NCBI GenBank assembly: GCA_015066565.1
Contig: SVOB01000001.1
Coordinates: forward strand, 1,240,001 to 1,304,000
Length of the DNA: 64,000 nt
Direction: 5' to 3'
Origin: Oscillospiraceae bacterium
Lineage (GTDB): Bacteria; Bacillota; Clostridia; Oscillospirales; Acutalibacteraceae
Shown: positions 25,593 through 64,000 of the stretch, piece after piece
How the letters are laid out: each line of letters opens with the position of its first letter
Position numbering within the stretch: the stretch's first letter is position 1
Notes under the pieces: model-generated
What the model was told of the DNA's origin: nothing
The model's input: only the letters and a program-made list of their open reading frames with translations
Database searches by the model: none
Program-made: the position numbers and the translations under genes

Positions 25593-25612
25593 GGAAAGGG
25601 TAGGTGTTCATG

Positions 25613-25867: not shown

Positions 25868-25897
25868 TAGTTTAGGTAAGAAAAAGGAGGCAATACT

Positions 25898-26266: not shown

Positions 26267-26281
26267 TAGGAGGTGCCAAGG

Positions 26282-26602: not shown

Positions 26603-26618
26603 GGGAGGGACATAACAA

Positions 26619-27161
26619 ATGGCAGCAAGACTTAAAGAAATGTATACAAAAGAAGTCGCCCCCGCACTTTTCAAGAAGTTCGGTTATAAGAGTGTTATGC
26701 AAATCCCGAAGCTTGATAAAATTGTTATCAACGTAGGCTGCGGCGAAGCTAAGGATAACCCCAAGGCTATCGACGCTATAGTCGGCGACATCGCCACAAT
26801 CACAGGTCAGAAGCCCGTTGTTTGTAAGGCTAAGAAATCAGTCGCTAACTTTAAGCTTCGTGAAGGCATGCCTATCGGCGTTAAGGTAACACTTCGCGGC
26901 GATAAGATGTATGAGTTCCTTGACAGGTTCTTCAACATCGCGCTTCCCAGAGTTCGTGACTTCAGAGGTATCAACCCCAATTCCTTCGACGGCAGAGGTA
27001 ACTACTCAACCGGTATCAAGGAGCAGTTGATTTTCCCTGAAATCGAGTACGATAAAGTTGACAAGGTTCGTGGTATGGACATCTGCTTCGTAACCACAGC
27101 CAATACCGATGAAGAGGCCAGAGAGCTGCTTACTCTCATGGGCGCTCCGTTTGCTAAATAA
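26619..27161 (+). CDS. rplE: 50S ribosomal protein L5
   Basis: The 180-residue protein contains [45 protein letters not shown] and the C-terminal [21 protein letters not shown], standard for L5. It contacts the P-site tRNA and 5S rRNA. GGGAGGG precedes the ATG. Confidence 0.98.
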
Positions 27162-27174
27162 GGAGGGATAACAA

Positions 27175-27360
27175 GTGGCTAAAACAGCAATGAAGGTTAA
27201 GCAGGCTCGTCCCGCTAAGTATTCATCAAGACAGTACAACCGCTGTAAAATCTGCGGCAGACCACATGCTTATCTCCGTAAGTACGGAGTATGCCGTATC
27301 TGTTTCAGAGAGTTGGCACATGCAGGTCAGATTCCCGGTGTAAAGAAGTCAAGTTGGTAA
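27175..27360 (+). CDS. rpsN: 30S ribosomal protein S14, zinc type
   Basis: The 61-residue product is the short zinc-binding S14, with CKIC and CRIC pairs around [11 protein letters not shown]. This form is typical of Firmicutes and Actinobacteria. GTG at 27175 is the start, with GGAGGG eight bases upstream. Confidence 0.97.
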
Positions 27361-27391
27361 GAAAAAGAGCAATCTAAGGAGGTAAAACAGT

Positions 27392-27790
27392 ATGCAAATT
27401 ACTGATTCTATCGCCGATATGCTTACAAGAATTCGTAACGCGAACTCAGCAAAGCATGATACGGTGAAGGTACCCGCATCAAACATGAAGAAAGCGATTG
27501 CTCAGATTCTTGTTGATGAAGGTTACATTAAAGGTTTCACGGTTGAAGATGACGGAAAACAGGGTATGATGGAGATTACTCTCAAATACGGCCCCAACAA
27601 GTCATCCGTAATCACCGGTTTACGCAGAGTTTCAAAGCCCGGTCTGCGTATTTATACAAGCTGTGAGGAAATGCCCAGAGTTATGAAGGGTCTCGGCATT
27701 GCAATCCTCTCAACACCTAAGGGCGTAATGACAGATAAGGACGCACGCAAGGCTAATGTCGGCGGTGAAGTCCTCGCATTCATCTGGTAA
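27392..27790 (+). CDS. rpsH: 30S ribosomal protein S8
   Basis: The 132-residue protein opens [16 protein letters not shown] and has [21 protein letters not shown] and a final [23 protein letters not shown]8 binds helix 21 of 16S rRNA and in E. coli represses the spc operon. AAGGAGG precedes the ATG. Confidence 0.98.
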
Positions 27791-27804
27791 GGAGGTACAG
27801 TACT

Positions 27805-28350
27805 ATGTCTCGTATCGGCAGAGAGCCCATCGTTATTCCGGCGGGCGTCGATGTTACTGTTGACGGCAGCACTGTTACCGTAAAGGGCCCCAAGGGCGAA
27901 CTCACCAGAACAGTGCACCCCAACATGACAGTTGAGAAGAAGGACGGCCAGATTTTGGTTTCACGTCCTAACGACAATAAGGAAAACCGTTCACTTCACG
28001 GTTTGACAAGAACTCTTATTGCCAATATGGTAACAGGCGTTGAAAAGGGCTTCTCAAAGGAGCTTGAAATCAACGGTATCGGTTACCGTGCAGAAAAGAA
28101 GGGCAAGGACCTTGTAATGACCATCGGTTATTCACATCAGGTTATTATGTCCGAGGTTGACGGAATTTCAATTGACGTTCCGGCGCCTAACAAGATTATC
28201 ATTTCCGGTCCCGACAAGCAGAAGGTTGGCCAGTTCGCAGCCGAGGTCAGAGAAAAGAGACCTCCCGAGCCGTATAAGGGCAAGGGCATCAAGTATGCGT
28301 CTGAGCACATCCGCCGCAAGGAAGGTAAAGCCGGTAAGGGCGGCAAATAA
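27805..28350 (+). CDS. rplF: 50S ribosomal protein L6
   Basis: The 181-residue product starts [14 protein letters not shown] and includes [29 protein letters not shown] and the C-terminal [15 protein letters not shown]-type signature (residues [13 protein letters not shown]). L6 lies near the factor-binding site. GGAGG precedes the ATG. Confidence 0.98.
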
Positions 28351-28365
28351 AAGGAGGGTTTCTAA

Positions 28366-28725
28366 ATGGTTAAAAAGCCTGATTCAAACAAGGCAAGACT
28401 TAATCGCCATAAGAGAGTCCGTGGAAAGGTTACAGGCACTGCTGAGTGCCCCCGCCTTAATGTGTTCCGCTCACTTCAGCACATCTATGCTCAGCTTATA
28501 GATGATGTTGCCGGCGTTACATTGGTTTCAGCTTCAACAGTTGAAAAGGACTTTACGGAATATGGCGGTAATATGTCCGCAGCTAAGAGCGTGGGCAAAT
28601 TATTGGCTGAAAGAGCTGCTGAGAAGAATATCAAAGATTGCGTATTCGACAGAGGCGGTTATATCTATCACGGCAGAGTTAAAGAGCTCGCCGAAGGCGC
28701 TCGCGAGGGCGGCCTGAACTTCTAA
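28366..28725 (+). CDS. rplR: 50S ribosomal protein L18
   Basis: The 119-residue protein has a basic N-terminus ([15 protein letters not shown]), [18 protein letters not shown] and a C-terminal [25 protein letters not shown], all L18 motifs for 5S rRNA binding. Confidence 0.98.
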
Positions 28726-28741
28726 GAGAGGAGAGAATATT

Positions 28742-29236
28742 ATGGCTAAAATTGACGCTTCCACAATGGAGCTTCAGGAACGTGTAGTTTCTATAAACCG
28801 TGTTTCAAAGACTGTAAAGGGCGGCCGTATCTTCAAGTTCTCTGCTCTTGTAGTCGTTGGTGACGGAAACGGCACTATCGGTTTCGGTCTTGGTAAGTCC
28901 GGCGAAGTTCCGGACGCTATCCGTAAGGGTATTGAGGACGCTAAGAAGAATCTTATGAAGATTTCTCTTAAGGGTACTACAATTCCTCACGAGGTTATCG
29001 GTAAGTTCGGCGCAGGCGTTGTTCTTCTTAAACCCGCTGCTCCCGGTACAGGCGTTATCGCCGGCGGCCCGGTTCGTGCGGTTGTTGAAACAGTCGGCAT
29101 CAAGGACATCCGTTCCAAGGCTCTTCGTTCAAACAATCCCTGCAACGTAGTCAGAGCTACCATCAACGGTCTTGCTCAGCTCCGTAATGCAGATGAAGTT
29201 GCCGCTATCCGCGGTAAAAACGTAAAAGACATATAA
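28742..29236 (+). CDS. rpsE: 30S ribosomal protein S5
   Basis: The 164-residue protein has [20 protein letters not shown] and [21 protein letters not shown], the double-stranded RNA-binding and fidelity-related regions of S5, then [26 protein letters not shown] lies before the ATG. Confidence 0.98.
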
Positions 29237-29250
29237 GGAGGGCGTAAGTA

Positions 29251-29430
29251 ATGGCTAATTTGCAGATTAAGCTCGTTAAGAGCACTATCGGCAGCAAAAA
29301 GGACCAGATTGCTACAGTTCGCTCTCTCGGTCTTAAGAAAATCGGCGATGTTGTGGTACAGCCCGACAATCCTCAGACACAGGGTAAGATTCACAAGGTC
29401 GCACATCTTGTTGAGGTTACAGAAGCTTAA
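29251..29430 (+). CDS. rpmD: 50S ribosomal protein L30
   Basis: This short gene encodes 59 residues beginning [19 protein letters not shown] and including [22 protein letters not shown], which match L30. AAGGAGGG lies eight bases before the ATG, and the gene occupies the usual slot between S5 and L15. Confidence 0.96.
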
Positions 29431-29445
29431 AGGAGGTGCGAAAGT

Positions 29446-29889
29446 ATGAAATTGCATGAACTCTCACCCGCTGAGGGCAGCAAGAAAGCTGTCAAGAGAA
29501 TCGGACGCGGTCCCGCTTCCGGTCAGGGTAAAACAGCCGGTAAAGGTCATAAGGGCCAGAAGGCAAGAGCAGGCGGAGGTATGCGCCCCGGTTTCGAGGG
29601 TGGCCAGATGCCTTTACAGAGAAGACTTCCCAAGAGAGGCTTCAACAACATCTTCGCAAAGGAGATTGCCATTGTTAACGTAGCGGCTCTCGATAAGAAA
29701 TTCGAGGACGGCGCAACAGTTGACATCGAGGCACTCAAAGCAGCAGGTCTTATTAAGAAGGAGCTTGACGGCGTCAAGGTTCTCGGCAACGGCGAAATCA
29801 CCAAAAAGCTTACTGTTCAGGTCAATGCTTTTTCCGATTCGGCAAAGGCAAAGATTGAAGCAGCCGGCGGAAAGGCCGAGGTGATTTAA
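29446..29889 (+). CDS. rplO: 50S ribosomal protein L15
   Basis: The 147-residue product begins [13 protein letters not shown] and carries the Gly/Arg-rich loop [20 protein letters not shown] and [18 protein letters not shown]15 is a late-assembly 50S protein. It ends two bases before secY. Confidence 0.98.
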
Positions 29890-29891
29890 CA

Positions 29892-31211
29892 ATGATAAAA
29901 ACCATTGTTAATGCTTGGAAAATCGCAGACCTCAGAAAAAAGTTAATTTTTACGGCGCTTATGGTGCTCGTATTCAGAGTTGGTTGCGCTTTACCCGTTC
30001 CGTTTGTTAATATTGCAAGCGAGGGTATCCTTCCGGATTCAACAGCGAACAACTTTATGACATATCTTAGCATGATGACAGGTAACGCCTTCAACTACGG
30101 AACTCTTTTCGCAATGTCGGTTACGCCTTACATCAACGCTTCGATTATCATTCAGCTTCTTACAGTTGCAATCCCTGCTCTTCAGAAGCTCTCTCAGGAG
30201 GGTGAAGAAGGCAGAAAGAAGATAGGCAAAATCACCCGTTATTCAGCGGCAGCATTAGCTTTAATGCAGAGTACGGCTTACTTCTTCTACATCCGTTCTC
30301 AGGGCTTTATTTCAACAGCCTCTGACGGATCGAAGTACACAGGCTTCGCTGCAGTATTCCAGGCAGCAGTTATCATTCTCTGCTATACAGCAGGCGCGGC
30401 GTTTATCATCTGGTTGGGCGACCTCATCAACGAAAAAGGTGTCGGCAACGGTATTTCAATTATCCTTTTTGCCGGTATCGTAGCGGGAATCCCCACCATT
30501 ATGTATCAGTTGTATTCATATATGAACCACGGCGGCGTTTACTATGCGCTTGCTCCTCTTGCGTTAATCATTATGATTCTTATGATTGCGTACATCGTCT
30601 GGATGGATAATGCCGAAAGACGTATTCCGGTTCAGTATGCTAAAAGAGTTGTCGGCAGAAAGATGTACGGCGGACAGTCCTCACACATTCCGATTAAGGT
30701 TAATATGTGCGGCGTTCTTCCTATAATCTTCGCTTCGTCAATTCTCTCCCTTCCGCCGACAATCGGTATGTTTGTCACTCCTAAAGAGGGCAGCTTCTGG
30801 GAGACATTCCTCAACTGGTTCAATTCCGACAGCGTTGTATACGGAGTAATTTACTTCATTCTTATAATTTTCTTCGCATATTTCTATGCGGCAATCCAGT
30901 ACAATCCGATTGAGATGTCAAACAACATCCGTAATCAGGGCGGCGTCATCCCCGGTATCCGTGCCGGCAGACCCACTTCGGAGTTTATCACAAGAGTTCT
31001 CAACAGACTCACACTTCTCGGAGCTTTGCTTCTTTCGGTTGTTGCGATATTCCCGATTATCTTCACCCAGGTTACAACTGCGGTTGACTATCCGATGAAC
31101 ATTTCTCTCGGCGGTACATCAATCATCATCGTTGTAGGCGTTGCTCTTGAAACAGTCAAGCAGCTTGAAAGCCAGATGATGATGCGTCACTACAAGGGCT
31201 TCCTTGATTAA
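29892..31211 (+). CDS. secY: Preprotein translocase subunit SecY
   Basis: The 439-residue protein has ten predicted membrane helices. Key SecY motifs are FRVGCALPVPF, MSVTPYINASIIIQLL, LSQEGEEGRKKI (cytosolic loop) and IPVQYAKRVVGRKMYGG-like SecA-contact loop, plus NNIRNQGGVIPGIRAG in the C5 loop. It forms the Sec channel with SecE/SecG, encoded elsewhere. Placement after L15 is universal in Firmicutes. Confidence 0.98.
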   Translation: MIKTIVNAWKIADLRKKLIFTALMVLVFRVGCALPVPFVNIASEGILPDSTANNFMTYLSMMTGNAFNYGTLFAMSVTPYINASIIIQLLTVAIPALQKLSQEGEEGRKKIGKITRYSAAALALMQSTAYFFYIRSQGFISTASDGSKYTGFAAVFQAAVIILCYTAGAAFIIWLGDLINEKGVGNGISIILFAGIVAGIPTIMYQLYSYMNHGGVYYALAPLALIIMILMIAYIVWMDNAERRIPVQYAKRVVGRKMYGGQSSHIPIKVNMCGVLPIIFASSILSLPPTIGMFVTPKEGSFWETFLNWFNSDSVVYGVIYFILIIFFAYFYAAIQYNPIEMSNNIRNQGGVIPGIRAGRPTSEFITRVLNRLTLLGALLLSVVAIFPIIFTQVTTAVDYPMNISLGGTSIIIVVGVALETVKQLESQMMMRHYKGFLD

Positions 31212-31226
31212 TCAGAGGAGAACAAA

Positions 31227-31859
31227 ATGAATTTGATTTTATTGGGAGCTCCCGGAGCAGGTAAGGGCACACAGGCTGAAAAGATTTGTGAAAAGCTCTC
31301 TATTCCTGCTATTTCGACGGGTAATATAATCCGCGAAGCCTTGGCGAACGGTACCGAAATGGGACTTAAGGCTAAGGAATATATAAACGCCGGCAAGCTC
31401 GTACCCGACGAGGTTGTCATAGGCATTATCAAGGAAAGACTCGCTGAGGATGATTGCAAAAACGGCTTCATCCTTGACGGCTTCCCGAGAACAATCCCTC
31501 AGGCTCAGGCGCTCGACGAGATGGGCATTGTCATTGACAGGGTTATCGACATCGAGGTTGCTGACGAAACAGTAGTCAAAAGAATGTCGGGCAGAAGAGT
31601 TTGTTCCAAGTGCGGCGCTTCTTATCATCTTGAATTCAAGAAGCCGATTAACGACGGCGTATGCGACAGCTGCGGCGCAGAGTTAATTCAGCGCAAGGAC
31701 GACCACCCCGACACCGTGCTCGACAGACTTAAGGTCTATCACGAGCAGACAGAGCCCTTAAAGGATTACTACGAAAAAACGGGTAAACTTAAGGTTGTCG
31801 AAGGACAGGAAGAGGTTAAGGAAACAACCGCTCTTGTCTTCGAAGCATTGGAGAACTAA
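31227..31859 (+). CDS. adk: Adenylate kinase
   Basis: The 210-residue enzyme interconverts ATP+AMP and 2 ADP. It has the P-loop LGAPGAGKGTQ (5-15), LDGFPRT near 84-90 and a zinc-binding long lid with CSKC and CDSC pairs (~127-150), as in Gram-positive Adk. The AMP-site segment reads STGNIIRE where many Adk have STGDxxR. GAGGAG precedes the ATG. It lies between secY and map as in other Firmicutes. Confidence 0.97.
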   Translation: MNLILLGAPGAGKGTQAEKICEKLSIPAISTGNIIREALANGTEMGLKAKEYINAGKLVPDEVVIGIIKERLAEDDCKNGFILDGFPRTIPQAQALDEMGIVIDRVIDIEVADETVVKRMSGRRVCSKCGASYHLEFKKPINDGVCDSCGAELIQRKDDHPDTVLDRLKVYHEQTEPLKDYYEKTGKLKVVEGQEEVKETTALVFEALEN

Positions 31860-31861
31860 GC

Positions 31862-32611
31862 ATGATAGTGCTAAAATCAGCAAGAGAAATTGACATAATG
31901 CGTAAAGCCTGTCAAATCTCGGCGGAAGCATTAAGGATAGCAGGTGAGGCAGTCAAGGAGGGCGTTTCGACCTACGAGATTGACCAAATAGCCTATAACT
32001 ATATAAAGAAGCAGGGCGCTGAGCCCAACTTCCTTCACTATAACGGCTACCCTGCTACCGCATGCATTTCTATTAATGACGAGATCATTCATGGTATTCC
32101 GAGCAAGAACCGTATACTGCATCGCGGCGACATAGTCAGTATTGACCTTGGAGCCAAGATTGACGGCTATAACGGTGACAATGCCGCTACCTTTGCCGTC
32201 GGCGAAATATCCGACGAGGCAAAACGTCTTTGCGAGACGACTGAAGAAAGCCTTTATAAAGGAATTGAAAAGGCGCTCGCAGGCGGCAGACTCGGTGATA
32301 TTGGTTATGCAGTACAGAGTTATTGCGAGGACAGAGGGTTCTCGGTCGTGCGTGAATACACGGGTCACGGCGTAGGAACTCATCTGCATGAAGATCCGAG
32401 CGTACCTAACTACGGAACTCCCGGAAGAGGAGTACGCCTGTTACCGGGTATGACAATTGCAATCGAGCCTATGATTACTCTCGGCAAGGCGGCAATAAAC
32501 GTTATGCCCGACGGTTGGACGGTTAAGACCAGGGACGGTTCACTCGCCGCTCATTATGAGCATACGATAGCCATTACCTCCTCAGGTCCCGTAATTCTTA
32601 CAAAAATATGA
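31862..32611 (+). CDS. map: Methionine aminopeptidase type I
   Basis: The 249-residue enzyme removes the initiator Met. Metal ligands are visible: D in VSIDLGAKIDGY, D in NGDNAATF, H in GHGVGTHLHE, E in AIEPMITLG and E in HYEHTIAI. There is no N-terminal zinc-finger extension. The gene starts two bases after adk and overlaps the KOW gene by four bases. Confidence 0.97.
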   Translation: MIVLKSAREIDIMRKACQISAEALRIAGEAVKEGVSTYEIDQIAYNYIKKQGAEPNFLHYNGYPATACISINDEIIHGIPSKNRILHRGDIVSIDLGAKIDGYNGDNAATFAVGEISDEAKRLCETTEESLYKGIEKALAGGRLGDIGYAVQSYCEDRGFSVVREYTGHGVGTHLHEDPSVPNYGTPGRGVRLLPGMTIAIEPMITLGKAAINVMPDGWTVKTRDGSLAAHYEHTIAITSSGPVILTKI

Positions 32612-32871
32612 TTGCGGAATTTAAAAGAGGGACGGTTGTTGTATCCGCGGCAGGGCGCGATAAAACACGGCTTTTGGCTGTGGTGGGCCTTGAAAACAAC
32701 AGAGTTCTGGTTTGCGACGGTAAGGAAAGACCTCTTATTAACCCGAAGAGTAAAAATCCGAAGCACCTCAAACAGACCGGACACACGGTTGATATGGACT
32801 TGATTTGTTCGGACCGAGCATTAAGAAAAGCGTTGAAGAAAATCCGTGAGGATTTCAAGGAGGCTAATTGA
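32608..32871 (+). CDS. KOW-domain RNA-binding protein (L14e-like)
   Basis: The 87-residue protein has an N-terminal KOW-like strand ([15 protein letters not shown]), resembling archaeal/eukaryotic L14e, and [15 protein letters not shown] in the middle. It is a known but uncharacterised companion between map and infA in Firmicutes spc operons. The ATG overlaps the map stop (ATGA), and the stop abuts infA. A ribosome-associated role is inferred. Confidence 0.88.
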
Positions 32872-32872
32872 T

Positions 32873-33091
32873 ATGTCAAAACAGGATATGATTGAAATAG
32901 AGGGTACGGTAACAGAGGCTTTGCCGAACGCTACGTTTTTGGTAGAGCTTGAAAACGGCCATCAGATTACGGCTTTTATTTCGGGTAAGCTGAGAATGAA
33001 TTATATCAGAATCCTTCCCGGCGACAAGGTTACGGTTGAAATGTCACCCTATGACCTTACAAAGGGCCGTATCACATGGCGTTCCAAATAA
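32873..33091 (+). CDS. infA: Translation initiation factor IF-1
   Basis: The 72-residue OB-fold protein reads [21 protein letters not shown], then [18 protein letters not shown] and [11 protein letters not shown], all IF-1 signatures. AAGGAGG lies upstream inside the previous gene. A reading extended to 32846 is rejected as it has no ribosome site. Confidence 0.98.
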
Positions 33092-33110
33092 TTTTAGGAG
33101 GTATATTTAA

Positions 33111-33224
33111 ATGAAAGTCAGACCTTCTGTCAGAAAAATGTGCGAAAAGTGCAAGATTATTAAGCGCAAGGGTAAAATCATGGTTATCTGTGAGAATCCC
33201 AAGCATAAGCAGCGTCAAGGTTAA
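33111..33224 (+). CDS. rpmJ: 50S ribosomal protein L36
   Basis: This short gene encodes 37 residues, [19 protein letters not shown] at the start and [10 protein letters not shown] at the end. Cys residues and His make the zinc ribbon of the C+ form of L36. TAGGAGG lies nine bases before the ATG. Confidence 0.97.
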
Positions 33225-33257
33225 TTCCTTGCAATACTAAATGGAGGTAATTGTAAT

Positions 33258-33626
33258 ATGGCGCGTATATCCGGTGTTGATTTACCGAGAGATAAGAGAG
33301 TCGAAATCGGCTTGACCTATATTTTCGGAATCGGACGCAAAACAGCAAGCGACATTATCGCTGCTACAGGTATAAATCCCGACACTCGAGTAAAGGATTT
33401 AACCGAAGAAGAAGTTTCAAAGATTCGTGAGTATATCGATCACAACGTTAAGGTTGAGGGTGACCTTCGCCGTGAAACTGCTTACGACATTAAAAGACTT
33501 GTTGAAATCGGCTGCTACCGTGGCATCCGTCACAGAAAGGGCTTGCCCGTAAGAGGTCAGACCTCTAAGAACAACGCCCGTACACGTAAGGGCCCGAAGA
33601 AGACAGTCGCTAACAAGAAGAAGTAA
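33258..33626 (+). CDS. rpsM: 30S ribosomal protein S13
   Basis: The 122-residue product starts [21 protein letters not shown] and ends with the basic [22 protein letters not shown] tail that touches tRNA. GGAGG lies ten bases upstream of the ATG. Confidence 0.98.
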
Positions 33627-33642
33627 TTGAGGAGGGATTAAC

Positions 33643-34038
33643 ATGGCCGCAACAAAAAAAGGCGCTACAAGAAAGCGTCGTGAAAGAAAAAATATTGAAA
33701 AGGGTGCTGCTCATATTCAATCCACCTTCAACAACACGATTGTAACCATTGCCGATGTACAGGGTAATGTAATTTCGTGGGCTACTTCAGGTGAAATGGG
33801 CTTTAGAGGCTCAAAGAAGTCTACTCCCTTTGCAGCTCAGACAGCAGCGGAAACAGCAGCTAAGGCTGCTATGGAGCACGGTCTTAAGACTGTTGAAGTC
33901 TTTGTCAAAGGCCCCGGCCAGGGCCGTGAGGCAGCTATCCGTGCGCTTCAGGCAGCAGGCTTGGAAATTACTCTTATCAAAGACGTAACTCCCATTCCTC
34001 ACAATGGCTGCCGTCCGCCTAAGAGAAGACGTGTATAA
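33643..34038 (+). CDS. rpsK: 30S ribosomal protein S11
   Basis: The 131-residue protein contains [36 protein letters not shown] and the C-terminal [18 protein letters not shown], typical of S11 on the 30S platform. GGAGGG precedes the ATG. Confidence 0.98.
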
Positions 34039-34053
34039 AGGAGGAGAATCAGA

Positions 34054-34656
34054 ATGGCAAAGAATATGCAGCCCGTAGCTAAACGCTGCAAGGCTCTCGG
34101 TCTTTCACCCGCAGTTTTGGGTTATTCAAAGAAGAATACAAACCGCAATCCTAAGGGCACAATGAGAAGAAAGCAGTCCGAGTACGGCATGCAGCTCAAT
34201 GAAAAGCAAAAGGTTAAATTTATTTACGGTATGCTTGAAAAGCAGTTCAGCTCATACTATGAAAAGGCAGCTAAGATGCCCGGCAAGACAGGCGAGAATC
34301 TTCTCGTTCTCTGCGAGCGCCGCCTTGACAACGTAGTTTTCCATCTCGGCTTTGCGGCTACACGCCGTCAGGCCCGTCAGCTTGTTAACCACGGTCATTT
34401 TACCGTTGACGGTAAGAAGGTTGACATCCCTTCATACCAGGTTAAGCCCGGTCAGGTTATCGCTGTAAGAGAGAAGAGCAAGGCTTCAAGCTTATTCCAG
34501 CGCCTTACAGGTGAGGACGCTCCGTTCATTACCACACCTGCTTGGATGGAGAAGGATGCTAACGAGCTTAAGGGTACAATTTTAAGAATGCCCACCCGCG
34601 AGGATATTGACTATCCCGTTGAAGAGCACCTTATCGTCGAGCTCTATTCTAAGTAA
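34054..34656 (+). CDS. rpsD: 30S ribosomal protein S4
   Basis: The 200-residue protein has an N-terminal region without the usual zinc Cys set (only one Cys, in AKRCKALG), then the S4 RNA-binding domain ([23 protein letters not shown]). S4 initiates 30S assembly and often regulates the alpha operon. GGAGGAG lies before the ATG. Confidence 0.97.
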
Positions 34657-34721
34657 TAGCGAACCCAAACACGAAAAACTTGAATACAGATTTTTCTGTA
34701 AATTTAATAGGAGGGTTTTAA

Positions 34722-35672
34722 ATGATTGGTATTGAAAAGCCCAACATCGAAGCGTTGGATTTATCCGCTGACGGAACTTACGGTAAGTTCGTTGTAGAGC
34801 CGCTTGAAAGAGGTTACGGCGTTACTCTCGGTAACTCCTTAAGAAGAGTTCTTCTTTCCTCAATCCCCGGCTATGCAATCACATCAGTAAAAATTGACGG
34901 CGTTCTTCACGAGTTCTCAACCGTTCCCGGTGTCAAGGAGGACGTCACTGAAATAGTCCTTAACTTAAAGGGCGTAATTCTTAAGATCCACGGCGACGGC
35001 CCCAAGACCATCTATGTGGACGCTAAGGGCGAAGGCGTTGTCACTGCAGGCGACATTAAAACCGATTCCGAGGTTGAAATCCTCAATCCCGATCACGTTA
35101 TCGCCACTCTCGGCGAGGGCGCTGAATTGGTTATGGAAATGACAGCCGACAAGGGCAGAGGCTACGTTTCTTCTGACAGAAACAAGCAGTTCCTTCAGCC
35201 CGCTATCGGTGTTATAGCAATGGATTCCATTTACACACCCGTTCTTAAAGTTAATTACACCATCGAGAACACCCGTGTAGGTCAGATTACCGACTATGAC
35301 AAGCTTTCACTTGAGGCTTGGACAAACGGTACAATCACCGCTCAGGAAGCAGTTTCTCTCGGTGCTAAAATCCTTACAGAGCATCTCAACCTCTTCGTTG
35401 ACCTTTCGGAAGAAGCAGGCAACGCTGAGATTATGGTAGTAAAAGACGACAACGGCAAGGAAAAGGCTCTTGAAATGACTATTGAAGAGCTTGACCTTTC
35501 GGTTCGTTCCTTCAACTGCCTTAAGAGAGCCGGCATCAACACTGTTGAGGATTTGATTAGTAAGTCTGAGGAAGATATGATGAAGGTCAGAAACCTTGGC
35601 AGAAAATCTCTTGAAGAGGTTGTCGCTAAGCTTGCAAGCCTTAACTTCACACTCAGAAACGACGACGAATAA
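34722..35672 (+). CDS. rpoA: RNA polymerase alpha subunit
   Basis: The 316-residue product shows [25 protein letters not shown] at the N-terminus (dimerisation), [11 protein letters not shown] near 184, and a C-terminal domain with [23 protein letters not shown] that binds UP elements. GGAGGG precedes the ATG. Confidence 0.98.
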
Positions 35673-57324: not shown

Positions 57325-58551
57325 TTAGTTTTCTGCGATAGCAGTTGTGGTTGTTTCATAATACGGCGCGGTTGTGGTGACCTCATAGTACGGCACGGTT
57401 GTAGTTTCTTCAAACACGTGCGTATACGGCTCACTGTAACCCTCGTCATTATTATAGTAATAAGTATATGTTTCATCCCGGTAATCAGTCAGTTGCTCGT
57501 TAAAAGTAGTTTGAGTTGTGTCAAGCTCTGAATAGTTACTCGGTGTTTCCTCTGCATAGACTTCGGATAAATTTGTCGTTGTTTCAACCGTGTTTGATTC
57601 GGTCGGTGAACTCCCTGAAACGCCGAACAATGTTCCCGAAAACAAAGTCATAATACAGACAAGAAGACAAAGACCGCCGAATTTTTTTGTCGCCCTGTGT
57701 GACAAAATCAGTTTAAGCCGATAATAAAGGTCGGCTTTTCCTCCGCCAAAGGAATCTATGATAGCGGGTTCTTTTGGGAAGGGTGAAGTTTTTTCTGCGG
57801 TTGCCGCAGACAGTATTGCCTGACAGTATGCCTTTTTTGAATCGTGACCTTCTTCGCCGATTACAGCTTCATCACATGAAAGCTCACACGCTTCGTCAAA
57901 TTTTCTTGACAGCATAGGCATTAGTGGGTTAAACCAATGGATACTGCGACAAACCAATACCAATAGCTTGAAAAACAAATCACGGCGAACAAAATGAGTA
58001 AGTTCGTGCTTAATAATCAGTCTGAGTTCACTTTCCTTATAATCGTCTCTCGGTAAGTAAACAGTTGGAAAAGAAAACCCTGTCATAGCAGGGGAGGATA
58101 ATCCCGAAAGAATAAGGATACGGGCGTTTTTTGTTCCTGTTTCCTGACAAACTTTTAGGGCGATTTCTTCTGTTGAAACGGAACAGTTATGTGCAAAACG
58201 GGAGGCGTATTCGTAAAAGCGATACTGCTTTAACAGGTAGTAAAAAACAAATCCGATAAAGCCAACCAACCATAATACAAACAGGATTAAATAAATGTTA
58301 AGGGAGTGTGACGGATTGGCGACTGTTTCTGCGGAAGATGATACATTGTAATTGTTTGAAACTGCGAATAAAGGCTTAAAAAACCCGGGCTTTACAGGAG
58401 TGAGAAAGCCTGCGAAAATTACAATCCACATTATATATCGGCGTTTTGCAGACCAAGTGTTTTTTAATAGTGAGGAAAGGGCGTAAAAACAAAGCGATAT
58501 TATACTCATTACGCCGGAGCAAATGCCAATGCTTATAATTACTTTTTCCAT
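57325..58551 (-). CDS. BlaR1-like M56 metallopeptidase sensor
   Basis: The 408-residue protein has N-terminal membrane helices (5-28, 38-52, 86-107), a cytosolic zinc-peptidase domain with KHELTHFVRRD (HELTH at 182-186) and DEACELSCDEAV carrying the third ligand, then a last helix at ~293-315. After it there is no penicillin-binding sensor domain. Instead a ~90-residue Thr/Tyr/Glu-rich tail with YYEVTTT and YYETTTT repeats ends the protein. It follows the blaI-like gene by nine bases. The likely job is to cleave that repressor on an unknown envelope signal. Confidence 0.85.
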   Translation of the reverse strand: MEKVIISIGICSGVMSIISLCFYALSSLLKNTWSAKRRYIMWIVIFAGFLTPVKPGFFKPLFAVSNNYNVSSSAETVANPSHSLNIYLILFVLWLVGFIGFVFYYLLKQYRFYEYASRFAHNCSVSTEEIALKVCQETGTKNARILILSGLSSPAMTGFSFPTVYLPRDDYKESELRLIIKHELTHFVRRDLFFKLLVLVCRSIHWFNPLMPMLSRKFDEACELSCDEAVIGEEGHDSKKAYCQAILSAATAEKTSPFPKEPAIIDSFGGGKADLYYRLKLILSHRATKKFGGLCLLVCIMTLFSGTLFGVSGSSPTESNTVETTTNLSEVYAEETPSNYSELDTTQTTFNEQLTDYRDETYTYYYNNDEGYSEPYTHVFEETTTVPYYEVTTTAPYYETTTTAIAEN

Positions 58552-58560
58552 TTTTAACCT

Positions 58561-58938
58561 CTAAATACTGTCTATCCAATCTTTAAGCTCTTTTATATCT
58601 TCTTCGGAAACCTTTTCACCGTCATAAAGGGCTTTTACAAGGCTGCTGAAAGATTTATTGCCAAACCTGTTGCGGAAGCTTTCCTGTTCAATCGACAGGT
58701 ATTGTTGTTCGGTAATTACTACATAGTAGGCTCTTTCTTTGCTTTTCTTTTCCGAACGAAGAAAGCCTTTTTTCTCGAGACGTGTAAGCATTGTGAGTAC
58801 GGTCTGTGGTTTCCAGTCTTTTTCAGGTAAAAACCGTCTTAACTTTTCAGTGAGTTCAGGGGATGTTACAGGCTCGGAAGAACTCCAAATGGTTTTCATA
58901 ATTTCAAATTCAGCGTCGGGAAGTTTTTTTAATGTCAT
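58561..58938 (-). CDS. BlaI/MecI-family repressor
   Basis: The 125-residue winged-helix protein has KKLPDAEFEIMKTIW at the start, a recognition region KDWKPQTVLTMLTRLEKKGFL (split near 44-64), and the C-terminal dimerisation helices. The ATG at 58938 has GAGGTG upstream; an extension to 59058 lacks a ribosome site and crosses the promoter. Two operators lie in its own promoter region, so it represses itself and the M56 gene. Induction would be by cleavage by the M56 partner. Confidence 0.92.
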   Translation of the reverse strand: MTLKKLPDAEFEIMKTIWSSSEPVTSPELTEKLRRFLPEKDWKPQTVLTMLTRLEKKGFLRSEKKSKERAYYVVITEQQYLSIEQESFRNRFGNKSFSSLVKALYDGEKVSEEDIKELKDWIDSI

Positions 58939-58952
58939 TGGAAACACCTCAT

Positions 58953-58965
58953 AACTACAATTGTC
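58953..58965. promoter_or_regulatory. BlaI-type operator, proximal
   Basis: AACTACAATTGTC resembles the TACA-TGTA operator with one weaker half. It lies between the -10 and the ribosome site of blaI. Confidence 0.6.
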
Positions 58966-58972
58966 TTTTTTT

Positions 58973-59001
58973 ATTTTACTACACGTGTAGTTTTTTGTCA
59001 A
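58973..59001 (-). promoter_or_regulatory. Promoter and operator of the blaI operon
   Basis: On the minus strand TTGACA, 17 bases, TAAAAT. The perfect palindrome ACTACACGTGTAGT (58978-58991) occupies the spacer and touches the -10, so repressor binding would block RNA polymerase directly. Confidence 0.85.
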
Positions 59002-59082
59002 TATAATAGAGCAGAATGTTTTATGCTGGTCTTCAACTAAATGAAAAATACGGAACACCCGATTGGGTATTCCGTATTTCTA

Positions 59083-59456: not shown

Positions 59457-59485
59457 TTGACATTTATATAGTATTTTGATACAAT
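59457..59485 (+). promoter_or_regulatory. Promoter of the GH31 operon
   Basis: TTGACA, 17 bases, then TACAAT, 31 bases before the GH31 start. I see no clear operator palindrome in the roughly 180-base gap. Confidence 0.78.
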
Positions 59486-59516
59486 TTAATGTGAATAATT
59501 TTCGGGAGGTAAAACA

Positions 59517-61544
59517 ATGCTTGCGCTTAATTCCGATAAAAAATCTTTAAATATTATTTTTGAAAACGAAAACGTTCTTTCCTTTTTGAAAAAGGAGCCT
59601 TTAATGTGGCTCGGTTCGGGCGAGGACGGTTTTTCTATGTCACGCGGCTCGTTTAAATTCAAGGAGAAGGTTCTTTCAAAAACCGCTCTCTATTATGAAA
59701 GCCACGAGGTTTCGGGCGGAAATATCATTCTTCATCTTGTATCGAAAAAGGATGAAACAAAGGTCAGTGTTACGGTTAAAACCGAGGGCAGTATTTTAAA
59801 GCTTATCCCCGCGGTTGAAACCGAGGGAAGCTTTAACCGTATGTGGTTCCGTATTCCTGCAACCGAGACCGAGCATGTTTACGGCTGCGGTGAGATTTTC
59901 ACAAAGTTTGATTTAAGAGGCGAAAAGGTTCGTATCTGGGTTGCTGAGCATCAGAACGGAATGAGAATCGCAAAGAAGATTATACGCAATACTCTTACCG
60001 GTCAGCACCCCCACAGAATAGGCAAGTTCCTCAATTACGAAAGTTATTATGCTCAGCCGACCTTTATGTCCTCGAGAAAGTATTTCGTTCACGTTGACTC
60101 GGACGCCTATATGGATTTCTGCTTCAACCAAACCGAATATCACGAGCTTGTTGTTCGTGATGTTGCCCCTGTTTACTTCGGCTTCGCAAACACATTTGAA
60201 GCGTTAAGCGGCGTTTTGTCGTCGCTTCTCGGCCGTCAGCCGCTTCTTCCCGAATGGGCTTATGACGGAACAATCCTCGGCATCCAGGGCGGAACCGAAA
60301 CAATGTTCAGAAAGATTGAAACAGCCGAACAGGCAGGCGTTAAGGTTACGGGCGTCTGGTGTCAGGACTGGGAGGGCGAAAGAATAACCGCCTTCGGCAA
60401 ACAGCTTATGTGGAACTGGGTCTGGGATAAGGAACTTTACCCCGACCTTGATAAAGCGATAGAGCAGTTACACGCAAGGGGAATAAAATTCCTCGGCTAT
60501 ATCAACCCGTTCCTTGCTATCGAAAAGGAGTTATATAAGGAAGCGACCGAAAAGGGCTACTGCGTAAAGGACGCTAACGGCGAGGATTATCTCGTTAAGA
60601 TTACGACCTTCCCCGCGGCTATGATTGACCTTACAAACCCCGACGCTTACGAGTGGATTAAGAATATTATCAAAACTAATATGATAGGCTTGGGTCTTGA
60701 CGGCTGGATGGCTGACTTCTCGGAATATCTTCCGACAGACTGCGTTCTCTATAACGGAATGGACGCAAAGGATATTCACAACACCTGGCCTGCGCTCTGG
60801 GCGAAGGCGAACCGTGAAGCGCTTGAAGAGACGGGCAAGCTCGGTCAGGTCCTTTTCTTCACAAGAGCGGGTCATACAAACACGGTTAAGTATTCAACTC
60901 TTATGTGGAACGGCGACCAGCACGTTGACTTTTCCTTTGACGACGGTCTTCCGTCGGTTATTCCCGCAACTCTTTCGCTCGCTGTCAGCGGCTTCGGTCT
61001 TTGCCACAGCGATATCGGCGGATACACGACCTTCGGCAAGATGAGAAGAAATGAAGAGCTGTTTATGCGTTGGAGTGAACTTAACGTCTTCACGCCTCTT
61101 TTCAGAGGCCACGAGGGCAACCAACCCGACAGCAACACTCAGTTTGACAAGAGCGATATGGTGCTCAGTCACTATGCGAAAATGTCGAGGCTTCACTACG
61201 GACTTAAGAATTACCTTATGGCGCTTGATAAAGAAAACAATCAGTTCGGCGTTCCCGTTATCAGACCTCTTTTCTATTATTACGGAAAAGAAAAGGATTT
61301 CACGGAAACTTACGAATTTTTGCTCGGCAGAGATTTGCTTGTCGCTCCCGTTCTTGAAGAGGGTGACGACAAGAGAAGCGTTTATCTTCCCGATGACGAA
61401 TGGATTAATCTCTGGAACGGCTATGAGCTTGTAGGCGGAACATATAACGTTGACGCTCCCATAGGCCAGCCGCCCGTATTCTGCCGTAAGTCAAGCCCGT
61501 ATTTAGAGCAGTTCAAGGCTCTTTTCGACAGCGAAAAAAACTAA
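59517..61544 (+). CDS. GH31 glycosidase, sulfoquinovosidase (YihQ)-like
   Basis: The 675-residue intracellular GH31 enzyme aligns over its whole length with E. coli YihQ, which releases sulfoquinovose from its glycosides. By a constant shift of five residues, the catalytic Asp405 and Asp472 of YihQ correspond to D400 (GWMADFSEYLPTD) and D467 (WNGDQHVDF). Of the five YihQ sugar-sulfonate residues (Q262, Q288, R301, W304, Y508), Q257, Q283, W299 and Y503 are kept, but R301 is Q296 (FGKQLMW). The sulfonate grip may therefore be changed. GGGAGG lies before the ATG. It is followed by an isomerase, a DUF4867-like protein and an alcohol dehydrogenase in one operon. Confidence 0.88.
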   Translation: MLALNSDKKSLNIIFENENVLSFLKKEPLMWLGSGEDGFSMSRGSFKFKEKVLSKTALYYESHEVSGGNIILHLVSKKDETKVSVTVKTEGSILKLIPAVETEGSFNRMWFRIPATETEHVYGCGEIFTKFDLRGEKVRIWVAEHQNGMRIAKKIIRNTLTGQHPHRIGKFLNYESYYAQPTFMSSRKYFVHVDSDAYMDFCFNQTEYHELVVRDVAPVYFGFANTFEALSGVLSSLLGRQPLLPEWAYDGTILGIQGGTETMFRKIETAEQAGVKVTGVWCQDWEGERITAFGKQLMWNWVWDKELYPDLDKAIEQLHARGIKFLGYINPFLAIEKELYKEATEKGYCVKDANGEDYLVKITTFPAAMIDLTNPDAYEWIKNIIKTNMIGLGLDGWMADFSEYLPTDCVLYNGMDAKDIHNTWPALWAKANREALEETGKLGQVLFFTRAGHTNTVKYSTLMWNGDQHVDFSFDDGLPSVIPATLSLAVSGFGLCHSDIGGYTTFGKMRRNEELFMRWSELNVFTPLFRGHEGNQPDSNTQFDKSDMVLSHYAKMSRLHYGLKNYLMALDKENNQFGVPVIRPLFYYYGKEKDFTETYEFLLGRDLLVAPVLEEGDDKRSVYLPDDEWINLWNGYELVGGTYNVDAPIGQPPVFCRKSSPYLEQFKALFDSEKN

Positions 61545-61574
61545 GTTAATTATTCCAAGGAGGATTATCAATAA

Positions 61575-62885
61575 ATGAAAAAAGTAAAAATCGGTGTAGT
61601 TTGTCTTGCAAGAAAGACCTACGACTTCGAAGCGGCGGCTGAAATTTACGCCGAAACACAGAAAAGATTAAAGGCAAGAGATGACGTTGACTGGGTATTT
61701 GTTGACGGTCTTGTTATCGAGGTTGACGAAGCTCAAAAAGCGGCGGCTTACCTTGCAGGTCAGGAGCTTGACGGCGTTGCCATTATCAGCGGCACCTTCC
61801 ATCTCGGCCACCTTGCGCCCACTATAAAGAAGGCGCTTAAATGCCCCGTTCTTCTCTGGGCGTTCAACGAGCTTCCCTATAACGGCGGTAAAATCAGACT
61901 TAATTCCGTTTGCGGACTTAACCTTAACGCTTCGGTATTATATAAGTCGGGTATTGACGACTATTCCTGTCACGTCGGCGACGATATAGACGAGGTCTGG
62001 CTCAATGTTATAAAGATGAAAGCGGCTGTTTCCCACGCTCACGTCGGCCTTGCAGGCTACAGAGCGGACGGTTTCTTCAATCTGAGCGTTGAGGATACCT
62101 ACCTCTTTAACCGAACGGGCGTACTTGTTGACCATTATGAACTCAGCGAACTTATGAACGAATATAAGATGGCTGAAACCGGCTTCACTGTTGACGAGGT
62201 CAAGAGCATTTACGACTGCTCTGACATTAACGACGCTCAGCTTGACAAGGTCAGCGTGCTTTCGCGTTCGATGGAGAACTTTATTAATAAGAATAAGCTT
62301 GACGCGCTTGCAATCCGCTGCTGGCCCGAATTCGCAAACACCTTCGGCGTTGCTCCCTGCGCGGCTATGAGTCTTCTTCAGGGCAAGGGCTACACGCTCG
62401 GCTGTGAGGGAGATATTGAGGGTACTCTTTCGCTTCTCGCCTGTAACGCAATTGCAAAGGACCCCGCTTTCCTTGCAGACTTATCTCAGGTTAATTTTGA
62501 AGAAAATTACGCTCTTCTCTGGCACTGCGGCGTAGCGGCTTATCCGCTTTGGGACGGCAAGTCGCTCCGTTCCCTCGACACCTATTTCGCAGGCGGAAGA
62601 GGAGTTACGGCAGGCTTCGTTATGAAGACGGGCACGGTTACGGTTATGAGAATTGACACTGCCCGTGGCAAGACAAGGCTCTTTATCGGCAAGGGCGAAG
62701 CTGTTCCCATGGAGCGTGAGCTTTCGGGCACATACGCAAAGGTTATCTTTGACCAGCCGATTTCTCAGCTTATTGATACCGTTACCGAAACGGGCGTTGC
62801 TCACCATATTTCAATGATTTACGGCGACTATACAAAGGAAATGAAGCTGTTCGCGCGTCTTATGGGCTTTGAGGTGATTGAATAA
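61575..62885 (+). CDS. Fucose/arabinose-isomerase-like protein, candidate sulfoquinovose isomerase
   Basis: The 436-residue protein belongs to the L-fucose/L-arabinose isomerase-like superfamily: an N-terminal domain with VKIGVVCLARKTYDFEAA, the LDGVAIISGTFHLGHLA region, a middle with HAHVGLAGYRADGF, then CWPEFANTFGVAPCAAMSLL and GCEGDIEGTLSLL near 300, and a C-terminal domain with LWHCGVAAYPL. E and D/H residues that could bind metal are present in CWPEF, EGDIEG and LWHCG. Members of this family act as SQ isomerases in transaldolase-type sulfoglycolysis, and the neighbour is YihQ-like. AAGGAGG precedes the ATG. Confidence 0.78.
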   Translation: MKKVKIGVVCLARKTYDFEAAAEIYAETQKRLKARDDVDWVFVDGLVIEVDEAQKAAAYLAGQELDGVAIISGTFHLGHLAPTIKKALKCPVLLWAFNELPYNGGKIRLNSVCGLNLNASVLYKSGIDDYSCHVGDDIDEVWLNVIKMKAAVSHAHVGLAGYRADGFFNLSVEDTYLFNRTGVLVDHYELSELMNEYKMAETGFTVDEVKSIYDCSDINDAQLDKVSVLSRSMENFINKNKLDALAIRCWPEFANTFGVAPCAAMSLLQGKGYTLGCEGDIEGTLSLLACNAIAKDPAFLADLSQVNFEENYALLWHCGVAAYPLWDGKSLRSLDTYFAGGRGVTAGFVMKTGTVTVMRIDTARGKTRLFIGKGEAVPMERELSGTYAKVIFDQPISQLIDTVTETGVAHHISMIYGDYTKEMKLFARLMGFEVIE

Positions 62886-63556
62886 TGCTTAAGGCATTAC
62901 AGGAAAAAAATCCTCATCTTAAAATATACGATATTTCTTCGCCCGAGTTTAAAAAGTTCGGCTTTGTTATGTCAGGCGAGCCTTTTAAAGAGCTTTTTGA
63001 AAAAATGAAAGACACGCCGCTTCCCGAGGAAGGCAATATCTATGTCGCTTCGGACGGTGAGCTTGAAAAGCTTGATATTTTTGAGAAGCTTGAAAAAAAT
63101 TACTACGGCGGAATGGCGGTGGAAATCGGCTACTGTAACGGTCAGAATACAAAAATCAACGCCCTCGAATACCATAAGGGCGAGGAAATTAACCTTGCGG
63201 TTACCGACCTTGCGCTGTTTTTAGGTCAGGTTCAGCAGTTGAGGGATAACACCCTTACAACAGACGAGCTTGAATGTTTCTTCGTTCCGAAGGGGACGGC
63301 GTATTCAATGTATCCGACTACGCTTCATTTTTCGCCCTGTAAGGTACATAAAGGCGGATTTTTATGTTCGGTTATCCTGCCGAGAGGAACTAACTCGCCT
63401 CTCGACGAAAAGAGAGAAGAGATTTTTGAAAACGACAAAACTCTCTGGATGACAAACAAATGGCTTATAGGTCACGCTGAAAGCCGACCCGTTTCAAACG
63501 GCGCTTTCTGCGGGCTGACGGGCGAAAACTATGAACTGATTCCTTTGGAGGATTAA
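62885..63556 (+). CDS. DUF4867-like protein
   Basis: The 223-residue protein resembles DUF4867 proteins and looks like a cupin/KduI-type beta-sandwich: VEIGYCNGQNTKINALEYHKGEE, then a second strand-rich half with VPKGTAYSMYPTTLHFSPC. H, E and other possible metal ligands occur in EYHKGEE and TLHF. It could be a ring-opening isomerase, mutarotase or similar accessory enzyme for the sugar made upstream, but that is inference. Its ATG overlaps the isomerase stop (TAATG). The name rests on recall of the family. Confidence 0.65.
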   Translation: MLKALQEKNPHLKIYDISSPEFKKFGFVMSGEPFKELFEKMKDTPLPEEGNIYVASDGELEKLDIFEKLEKNYYGGMAVEIGYCNGQNTKINALEYHKGEEINLAVTDLALFLGQVQQLRDNTLTTDELECFFVPKGTAYSMYPTTLHFSPCKVHKGGFLCSVILPRGTNSPLDEKREEIFENDKTLWMTNKWLIGHAESRPVSNGAFCGLTGENYELIPLED

Positions 63557-63558
63557 AA

Positions 63559-64000
63559 ATGAACTGGGATTTTCTTTTGCCCGTTAAGCTTTATTTCGGC
63601 TCGGGCAGAATTAACGAGCTTTCAAAGATTATTGATGAAAAGGGCTTTAAGAGGGGCGTTCTTGTCTGTGACGGAATATTTGCTCAGAACGGACTGGCGG
63701 ACGAAATCGTTAAGAAAAGCGGCGGAAAGCTGACGGCGGTTTTTTCGGATATTACGCCTAACCCCACAACCGAAAACGTCAATAATTGCGTTAAGCTTTT
63801 AAGACAGGAAAACGCCGAATTTGTTGTCGCTCTCGGCGGCGGAAGTTCAATGGACTGCGCCAAGGCGGCTTGCGCAATTAAAAATTCGGATGACCTTATT
63901 GACGATTATCACTCAGGTATAAAGAAGCTCAATGCAGATGATAAAATTCCTATGATTGCAGTTCCGACTACGGCGGGTACGGGAAGCGAGGTCACCTTTG
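63559..64000 (+). CDS. Iron-containing alcohol dehydrogenase, N-terminal part
   Basis: The gene runs off the right edge; 147 residues are visible. It opens MNWDFLLPVKLYFGSGRINELS, with the NAD-binding GGGSSMDCAKA near 95-105 and PTTAGTGSEVTF at the end, both signatures of iron-dependent alcohol dehydrogenases (BdhA/YqhD type). The metal ligands lie beyond the window. GGAGGA precedes the ATG, two bases after the DUF4867 stop. In a sulfoglycolytic operon it could reduce sulfolactaldehyde to dihydroxypropanesulfonate; other aldehydes are possible. Confidence 0.88.
   Translation, partial: MNWDFLLPVKLYFGSGRINELSKIIDEKGFKRGVLVCDGIFAQNGLADEIVKKSGGKLTAVFSDITPNPTTENVNNCVKLLRQENAEFVVALGGGSSMDCAKAACAIKNSDDLIDDYHSGIKKLNADDKIPMIAVPTTAGTGSEVTF

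Follow-up and report, generated by a model that had tools for sequence, protein, structure and literature searches.

A predicted sulfoquinovose operon of sulfo-transketolase type in an Oscillospiraceae genome with no recognized sulfofructose transketolase

Operon content and pathway type

How would a sulfoquinovose (SQ) operon work in a genome where no enzyme dedicated to splitting the sulfosugar is found? The question is raised by seven genes that begin near the end of the window, the whole 64,000-nucleotide stretch of Oscillospiraceae DNA analyzed here, and continue beyond it on contig C2 of the same genome (G000; 3 contigs, 99.25% complete, 0% contamination). They encode a GH31 glycosidase, a fucose-isomerase-like protein, a DUF4867 protein, an iron-dependent alcohol dehydrogenase (Fe-ADH), a TauE/SafE protein, a GPH:cation symporter, and an RpiB/LacAB protein. 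The first four (59517-64000) are all on the plus strand and tightly packed, with spacings of 30, -1, and 2 bases. The initial annotation had described these four as one operon running off the window, which is borne out by the Fe-ADH gene, cut at 64000, and by the three further genes and the terminator-like hairpin beyond it. Its assignment to SQ catabolism is supported by gene content, including the TauE/SafE protein and a symporter 91–92% identical to the symporters of three sulfo-transaldolase (sulfo-TAL)-type operons in the genus. It had also proposed transaldolase-type sulfoglycolysis to dihydroxypropanesulfonate (DHPS), with a transaldolase and a transporter as the next genes. The symporter and a candidate sulfonate exporter (TauE/SafE) are indeed encoded after 64000; a transaldolase is not, and no PF00923 match is found in the genome. 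The operon is best read as an SQ operon that is not of transaldolase type. Read on past 64000, the operon has an SqwF-like Fe-ADH and an SqwI-like RpiB, which indicate the sulfo-transketolase (sulfo-TK) pathway with isethionate as the expected product.

The dedicated transketolase for 6-deoxy-6-sulfofructose (SF), SqwGH, was found in neither operon nor genome, an unexpected gap. We favor, with a probability of roughly 60%, a sulfo-TK route that would borrow a general split transketolase, most likely the pair termed TK1.

The pathway type was read from the surroundings of relatives of the window isomerase, using the best 80 loci of the 145 relatives reported and counting the genes recognized in the stretch covered. 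Gene calls are mechanical open reading frames, labelled by BLAST against a few reference proteins drawn from the same loci, and weak matches are counted (for example, Fe-ADHs at 23–25% identity). A transketolase (TK) only is seen in 27 loci, a transaldolase (TAL) only in 22, both in 4, and neither in 27; 53 of 80 thus carry one or the other, and the 27 with neither recognized in the stretch include the sister species (L037) and many short contigs. RpiB homologues are present in 26 of the 31 TK-bearing loci, in 4 of the 27 with neither enzyme, and in none of the 22 TAL-only loci. The corresponding counts for Fe-ADH homologues are 21/31, 3/27, and 0/22. Homologues of the 3-hydroxyisobutyrate-dehydrogenase-type sulfolactaldehyde (SLA) reductase occur in 15 of the 22 TAL-only and none of the 27 TK-only loci, and no such gene is found within the window operon.

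A tree of 48 RpiBs places the operon protein in a 30-leaf clade (support 0.93; the count includes the operon protein) whose other members all come from isomerase-bearing loci, and the 17 RpiBs sampled elsewhere in the genus all lie outside it. Beyond the sister species, its nearest relatives belong to L039, a TK cluster, and to L056, a short GH31–isomerase–RpiB cluster of a Bacillota metagenome-assembled genome (MAG) with no transketolase recognized on its 6 kb contig. Across the 39 genomes of the genus, the sister alone has a close copy (93%; 2/39 in total), all other matches being 30–41% identical, and a separate RpiB elsewhere in the window genome is 39% identical to it. By family and placement, the operon RpiB appears to be SqwI-like. 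Its grouping with the RpiBs of sulfo-TK clusters makes isethionate, rather than DHPS, the expected product.

The Fe-ADH is 52–57% identical to those of five TK-bearing loci and scores 194.8 bits against the NCBIfam SarD model (cut-off 700). The TauE protein has a median identity of 40% (maximum 46%) to those of TK-only loci, and medians of 32 and 35% (maximum 39%) to those of TAL-only loci and of the TAL operons of the genus. In the known pathway, SqwI belongs to PF02502, SqwF is a PF00465 or metal-dependent alcohol dehydrogenase, and the product is isethionate (PMC9594981, PMC12890257). We assign the operon to the sulfo-TK type on the distribution of RpiB and Fe-ADH homologues among the loci, the placement of RpiB, the TauE identities, and the families of SqwI and SqwF.

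The missing sulfofructose-cleaving enzyme

Profile searches of G000 and of the sister genome did not find SqwGH. In G000 they recovered, as transketolase-type genes, the two split pairs TK1 and TK2, plus DXS. SF transketolases carry the signature RAFDR, and two ordinary transketolases have RSFHR (PMC11659671). In our signature alignment, from which TK rows of 200 amino acids or fewer were left out, RAFDR is present in 30/30 SqwH cluster rows; the C subunit of TK1 (TK1C) has RAFHR, as do most TK1s of the family, and TK2C has ASFHR. Of the 39 genus genomes, 37 have a TK1-like C subunit (at least 66% identity, some partial), and most have a TK2-like one. A relocated SqwGH was therefore rejected: TK1 and TK2 are the only pairs found, neither has RAFDR, and both are widespread with or without an SQ isomerase.

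Other ways of cleaving SF were also considered. The transaldolase family PF00923 gave no match in G000 or in the sister (G213/G200), in searches whose control was positive in 10 of 14 genomes. Phosphoketolase was not found in any of the 10 genomes searched (control positive in 3 of 14), and a phosphoketolase route through sulfoerythrose and acetyl phosphate was rejected. An extra phosphofructokinase (PFK; PF00365) as SF kinase was discarded, each of 8 genomes tested having a single PFK and none lying in the operon; this check for a sulfo-Embden–Meyerhof–Parnas (sulfo-EMP2) route covered PFK genome-wide but not the class II aldolase (PF01116). We found no published report of a sulfo-TK cluster without SqwGH, in a literature coverage that did not extend to the original sulfo-TK paper of 2021 or the sulfoacetate variant of 2023.

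TK1 appears to be the likeliest SF-cleaving enzyme. Its phosphate-orienting residues are located in the C subunit, TK1C. In the two operon-bearing species the identity of TK1C to 28 congeners is 70.8 and 72.0%, against a mean of 86.2% for the congeners compared with one another and a lowest per-genome mean of 83.5% (computed on matches with at least 75% coverage, with genes separated by locus set). TK1N is less diverged, at 72.6 and 72.2% against a congener mean of 77.2% (lowest other, 73.1). The class-III aminotransferase beside TK2, used as a control, has no offset (86.8 and 86.1% against 86.1%), and two genes of the SCP2 region give 81.9/77.9 against 80.4 and 73.1/72.5 against 75.1. The control rests on the aminotransferase because the TK2N and TK2C sets retain an outlying paralogue row (lowest per-genome means 41.5 and 32.7) that depresses the means between congeners. 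In both operon species TK1C has Ala114, five residues after the phosphate-orienting His109; the alanine is present in 30/30 SqwH rows and in 0/49 other TK1-like rows, among which some genomes appear twice.

Several observations weigh against this reading. Key SQ enzymes can sit away from their operons, as the transaldolase does in G102 and G162, so a gene's absence from the operon is by itself no proof. The Fe-ADH is fairly close to some TK clusters (52–57% in five of them), but its median identity over 17 matches in TK-only loci is 34%. The HAD gene adjoining TK1 is also diverged (54.0 versus 68.6%, lowest other 55.6). Unlike TK1N, TK1C lies outside the genus in its tree (support 0.50) and may have been replaced from another source; its divergence happened once, in a single lineage, and so counts for little as a correlation. 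The data do not demonstrate that TK1C has converged on SqwH, because it retains His109 where 30/30 SqwH rows have Asp, shares the SqwH residue in just 1 of 18 diagnostic columns (ordinary residue at 17; TK1N, 0/9), and ranks 10th and 11th of 45 by mean identity to SqwH. Such convergence was rejected as proof: the two operon species score 2 convergent/27 private columns and the control pairs shown (42 of 43) 0 or 1, in a comparison made with no formal test. The 4 of 30 SqwH rows on L1xx loci were left out of this comparison and of the TK1C tree by a name filter.

Sulfoquinovosidase, isomerase, and DUF4867 protein

The GH31 protein scores 815 bits against NCBIfam NF007746 (PRK10426), above the curated cut-off of 553; we take this model to represent E. 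coli yihQ. It scores 696 bits against 5aed and keeps the catalytic residues aligned to YihQ Asp405 and Asp472. At the positions Q262/Q288/R301/W304/Y508, presumably the sulfonate-recognition set known as the QQRWY motif, it reads QQQWY. Four of the five residues are kept, among them the Trp304 and Tyr508 equivalents, and Gln stands at the position of Arg301, which we assume binds the sulfonate in YihQ. Arginine is found at the aligned position in the solved sulfoquinovosidases (SQases) 5aed, 5aee, 8r56, 6pnr, and 5ohy. No paper on the QQRWY motif, on Arg/Trp contacts to the sulfonate, or on R301 of YihQ turned up in our literature search.

The substitution is common among relatives. Strong GH31 matches in 11 of 200 family genomes give 12 GH31s, of which 10, the window protein included, have Gln at the 301 position. 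Four Gln-type proteins (L029, L031, L033, and L034) adjoin a transaldolase and a 3-hydroxyisobutyrate-dehydrogenase-type reductase, and thus belong to sulfo-TAL-type clusters; the proteins of L029 were assigned by family search. Over all loci, Gln occupies this position in 46 of 72 aligned GH31 rows, mostly from isomerase-bearing loci, and the YihQ-like QQR is present in 24 of 72. Some genes appear twice in this alignment and in that of TK1 (for example, L026/L050, L028/L040, L032/L057, and L037/L156). Because the same Gln is found in GH31s of sulfo-TAL-type clusters, it does not argue against SQ as substrate, and we read the Gln-301 proteins, SQase-like by context, as a natural variant group of sulfoquinovosidases.

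The isomerase matches PF02952 (45 bits) and the NCBIfam model NF048012, 'sulfoquinovose isomerase SftI', with 204.8 bits (E 2e-60), below its 700-bit cut-off. The model is narrow, since the isomerases of TAL cluster L029 (401 bits) and TK cluster L035 (415 bits) also miss this cut-off. The window protein shares 25–26% identity with SftI-type isomerases from two TAL clusters of the family and from a TK cluster, and 24–28% with those of congeneric sulfo-TAL-type operons. Its predicted fold (mean pLDDT 91.4) is that of L-arabinose/L-fucose isomerases, with TMq values of 0.87 to arabinose isomerase and about 0.75. At least one homologue of GH31, DUF4867, TK, TAL, or SLA reductase is recognized in 71 of the 80 best isomerase loci, weak matches included. 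By record title, these loci come from Clostridia, Spirochaetes, Lokiarchaeota, Thermotogae, and others. The window isomerase belongs to a second clade of presumed SQ isomerases. For the DUF4867 protein, a function in SQ/SF ring opening or as a mutarotase has been proposed and is unproven; assays of SftX, the DUF4867 protein of E. rectale, as mutarotase or kinase were negative (PMC11968277).

Comparison within the genus

The sister species (L037; G200 and G213 are apparently the same genome), titled as from water buffalo rumen, has the same seven genes in the same order with 85–95% protein identity. All seven are full length in both species and under purifying selection, each with a dN/dS of 0.04–0.09 at a dS of 0.7–1.2. 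Chance would not produce such shared order, identity, and low dN/dS in a second genome. The sister assembly (20 contigs, about 90% complete) carries the operon, TK1, and TK2, and no third transketolase pair was found in it. In both genomes, the genes after RpiB have no match to the sulfoglycolysis reference set.

Isomerase matches (E 1e-10) are found in 13 of 39 genus genomes, 2 of window type and 11 of SftI type. All 11 SftI-type stretches are sulfo-TAL-type operons with an SLA-reductase homologue; a transaldolase is seen in 10, and the eleventh ends at a contig end. The isomerase, TauE protein, and reductase of the window operon differ from those of the three operons that share its symporter so closely. 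The simplest history would be that one transporter was kept while the catabolic module was exchanged, one version leading to DHPS and the other to isethionate.

Proposed pathway and alternative explanations

From the gene content we infer the following activities, product, and choice of transketolase. The GPH symporter would import sulfoquinovosyl glycerol and/or SQ, and the GH31 enzyme, presumably cytoplasmic, would release SQ. The isomerase, perhaps aided by the DUF4867 protein, would convert SQ to SF. A first transketolase step, probably catalyzed by TK1 of the two general split transketolases, would yield 4-deoxy-4-sulfoerythrose, which the SqwI-like RpiB would isomerize to sulfoerythrulose. 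A second such step would give sulfoacetaldehyde, and the two C2 units would be passed to glyceraldehyde-3-phosphate to form xylulose-5-phosphate. Reduction of sulfoacetaldehyde by the Fe-ADH would produce isethionate, and the TauE protein would export it.

SF and/or sulfoerythrulose could also be split by a kind of enzyme not yet linked to sulfoglycolysis and encoded elsewhere in the genome. The lack of any transaldolase, SqwGH, or phosphoketolase match, the single PFK (as in the 7 other genomes tested), and the absence of the SF-transketolase signature from TK1C and TK2C are compatible with this, as is G167, another genome with GH31, isomerase, and GPH genes but no transaldolase or third transketolase found. 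We nevertheless regard it as unlikely, given that sulfo-TK-type RpiB and Fe-ADH imply the same C4 and C2 intermediates, made by a transketolase, and given the known promiscuity of transketolases; the aldolase and PfkB families lay outside the genome searches. SqwGH on a plasmid or unassembled piece is conceivable with assemblies of 3 contigs at 99.25% and 20 contigs at about 90% completeness, but is quite unlikely: it would have to be missing twice, from two separately assembled genomes, and what follows RpiB, in the window genome after the terminator-like hairpin, is unlike the sulfoglycolysis reference set in both.

An operon for another glycoside, in which Gln in place of the Arg of the five solved SQases reflects lost sulfonate recognition, is very unlikely. 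The same Gln is present in GH31s of sulfo-TAL-type operons of the family and genus and in most of the aligned rows, Trp304 and Tyr508 are kept, and SQ is the substrate suggested by TauE, DUF4867, and the close relationship of the symporter. The absence of the key enzyme gene would also fit a decaying, non-working remnant of a sulfo-TK operon; seven intact genes under purifying selection in both species and a conserved promoter-like site make this highly improbable. A sulfo-TAL operon yielding DHPS has eleven congeners with such operons in its favor, ten with a visible transaldolase and three with nearly the same symporter, and yet is almost certainly wrong: neither genome has a PF00923 match, the operon has no SLA-reductase-type gene, and it contains an RpiB, which no TAL-only locus does.

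The use of a general transketolase in a sulfo-TK route remains our preferred reading. In wider terms, we see about even odds of a further sulfoglycolytic route, in which SF is split without a dedicated transketolase, transaldolase, or kinase/aldolase pair, either by a housekeeping transketolase remodelled for both phosphosugars and sulfosugars or by an enzyme not yet linked to SQ. The exported product would then have switched between DHPS, a C3 sulfonate, and isethionate, a C2 sulfonate, within one genus (at least one member of which comes from the rumen) as catabolic modules were exchanged next to closely related transporters.

Relation to known systems

The operon resembles, by family, the sulfo-TK system of Clostridium sp. 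MSTE9 (SqvD, SqvB, SqwGH, SqwI, SqwF, SqwE; PMC9594981, PMC12890257) in its SQase, SQ isomerase, DUF4867 protein, RpiB-family SqwI, Fe-ADH SqwF, and sulfonate exporter. It differs in that the window genome has no SqwGH match, the GPH symporter is like those of sulfo-TAL-type operons of the genus, and the SQase has Gln at the YihQ 301 position. Rumen sulfo-TK clusters of Caproiciproducens, Ca. Limivicinus, and Sphaerochaetaceae share the kind of habitat of the sister species and the isethionate product, predicted here; they transcribe sqwG, sqwH, and sqwI (PMC13219744), whereas sqwGH is not found in the window genome. The sulfo-TAL system of Eubacterium rectale (SftG, SftI, SftT, SftR, SftE, SftX; PMC11968277) has a similar SQase, isomerase, DUF4867 protein, and exporter, and congeners of the window species carry operons of its type; the window operon lacks a transaldolase and an SLA reductase, and its isomerase is only distantly related to the congeneric ones. 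The bifurcated TK/TAL clusters of Faecalicatena share the TK-type RpiB and Fe-ADH, but are described as having SqwGH and transaldolases (PMC11659671), neither of which is found in the window genome.

A genome screen of aquatic bacteria requires the SF transketolase for a sulfo-TK call (PMC13372026). Such a key-gene rule would score the window operon as unable to degrade SQ. If a general transketolase performs the SF step, SQ degraders may be undercounted and pathway calls based on key genes are unsafe. The operon also marks a widespread Gln-301 GH31 group, a second clade of presumed SQ isomerases, and a genus where two pathways with different end products substitute for one another.

Genomic setting and other observations

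Features are listed in Table 1. The promoter-like site ends 31 bases before the GH31 start and is preserved in the sister species. No regulator gene is seen within the operon. The next gene beyond the hairpin encodes a glycerophosphodiester phosphodiesterase domain and appears to form a unit of its own.

Table 1. Features of the operon and the split transketolase genes (plain positions refer to the window, C2 positions to the contig of the window genome)
Feature	Position	Strand	Basis or remark
Promoter-like site TTGACA-17-TACAAT	59457..59485	+	near-consensus match only; TG before second hexamer
Ribosome-binding-like GGGAGG	59504-59509	+	ahead of GH31
Predicted GH31 sulfoquinovosidase (YihQ/SftG type), 675 aa	59517..61544	+	NF007746; motif QQQWY
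Predicted sulfoquinovose isomerase, second clade, 436 aa	61575..62885	+	fucose-isomerase C-domain PF02952; predicted fold
DUF4867 cupin (SqvB/SftX)	62885..63556	+	PF16161, 256 bits; related to solved 9gyy
Fe-ADH, predicted sulfoacetaldehyde reductase (SqwF-like), 374 aa	63559..64000; complete gene C2:1303559-1304683	+	window end cuts gene
TauE/SafE protein	C2:1304680-1305432		overlapped by Fe-ADH gene
GPH:cation symporter	C2:1305483-1306919		TIGR00792, over model cut-off
RpiB/LacAB protein	C2:1306923-1307396		PF02502
Terminator-like hairpin, 17 pairs, T-rich tail	C2:1307402-1307440		follows RpiB
TK1 split transketolase (N + C subunits)	C2:177520-179307		profile search
TK2 split transketolase	about C2:868959-870754		profile search

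Directly upstream of the operon, on the minus strand at 57325-59058, are genes for a BlaR1-type M56 peptidase and a penicillinase-repressor-family protein. Ribosomal protein S3, SecY, M24 peptidase, and RpoA genes are among those scanned at 24275-35672; this is a ribosomal-protein region, and the window is chromosomal. PHROGs and Pfam scans, each of 10 proteins encoded elsewhere in the window, returned ordinary chromosomal genes. The TK2 locus (L012:7070-11885, about C2:868069-872884) also contains a class-III aminotransferase, an SCP2-family protein, and one further protein, and the aminotransferase is present in 17 of 19 other genus stretches around TK2.

A second isomerase-family match in G000 (C2:614576, 24%, E 2e-8; L013:942-5884) was rejected as an SQ isomerase. 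It adjoins an apparent sugar kinase and GH3 protein, assigned by eye from the sequence with no family search, and the region is a separate sugar locus. Two further genomes, G102 and G167 (L028/L040 and L032/L057), have GH31–isomerase–GPH mini-operons with no RpiB, Fe-ADH, or TK nearby. G102 has a transaldolase ~35 kb away on the same contig; G167, with no transaldolase or third transketolase found, poses the same question as the window genome with a shorter operon. Nine MAG contigs titled Lokiarchaeota or Lokiarchaeia (L066, L068, L086, L087, L089, L090, L106, L109, and L112) carry an isomerase of the same clade and a YihQ-like GH31, and five of them (L068, L086, L106, L109, and L112) a transaldolase homologue. 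These archaea may catabolize SQ, provided that the bins are free of contamination.

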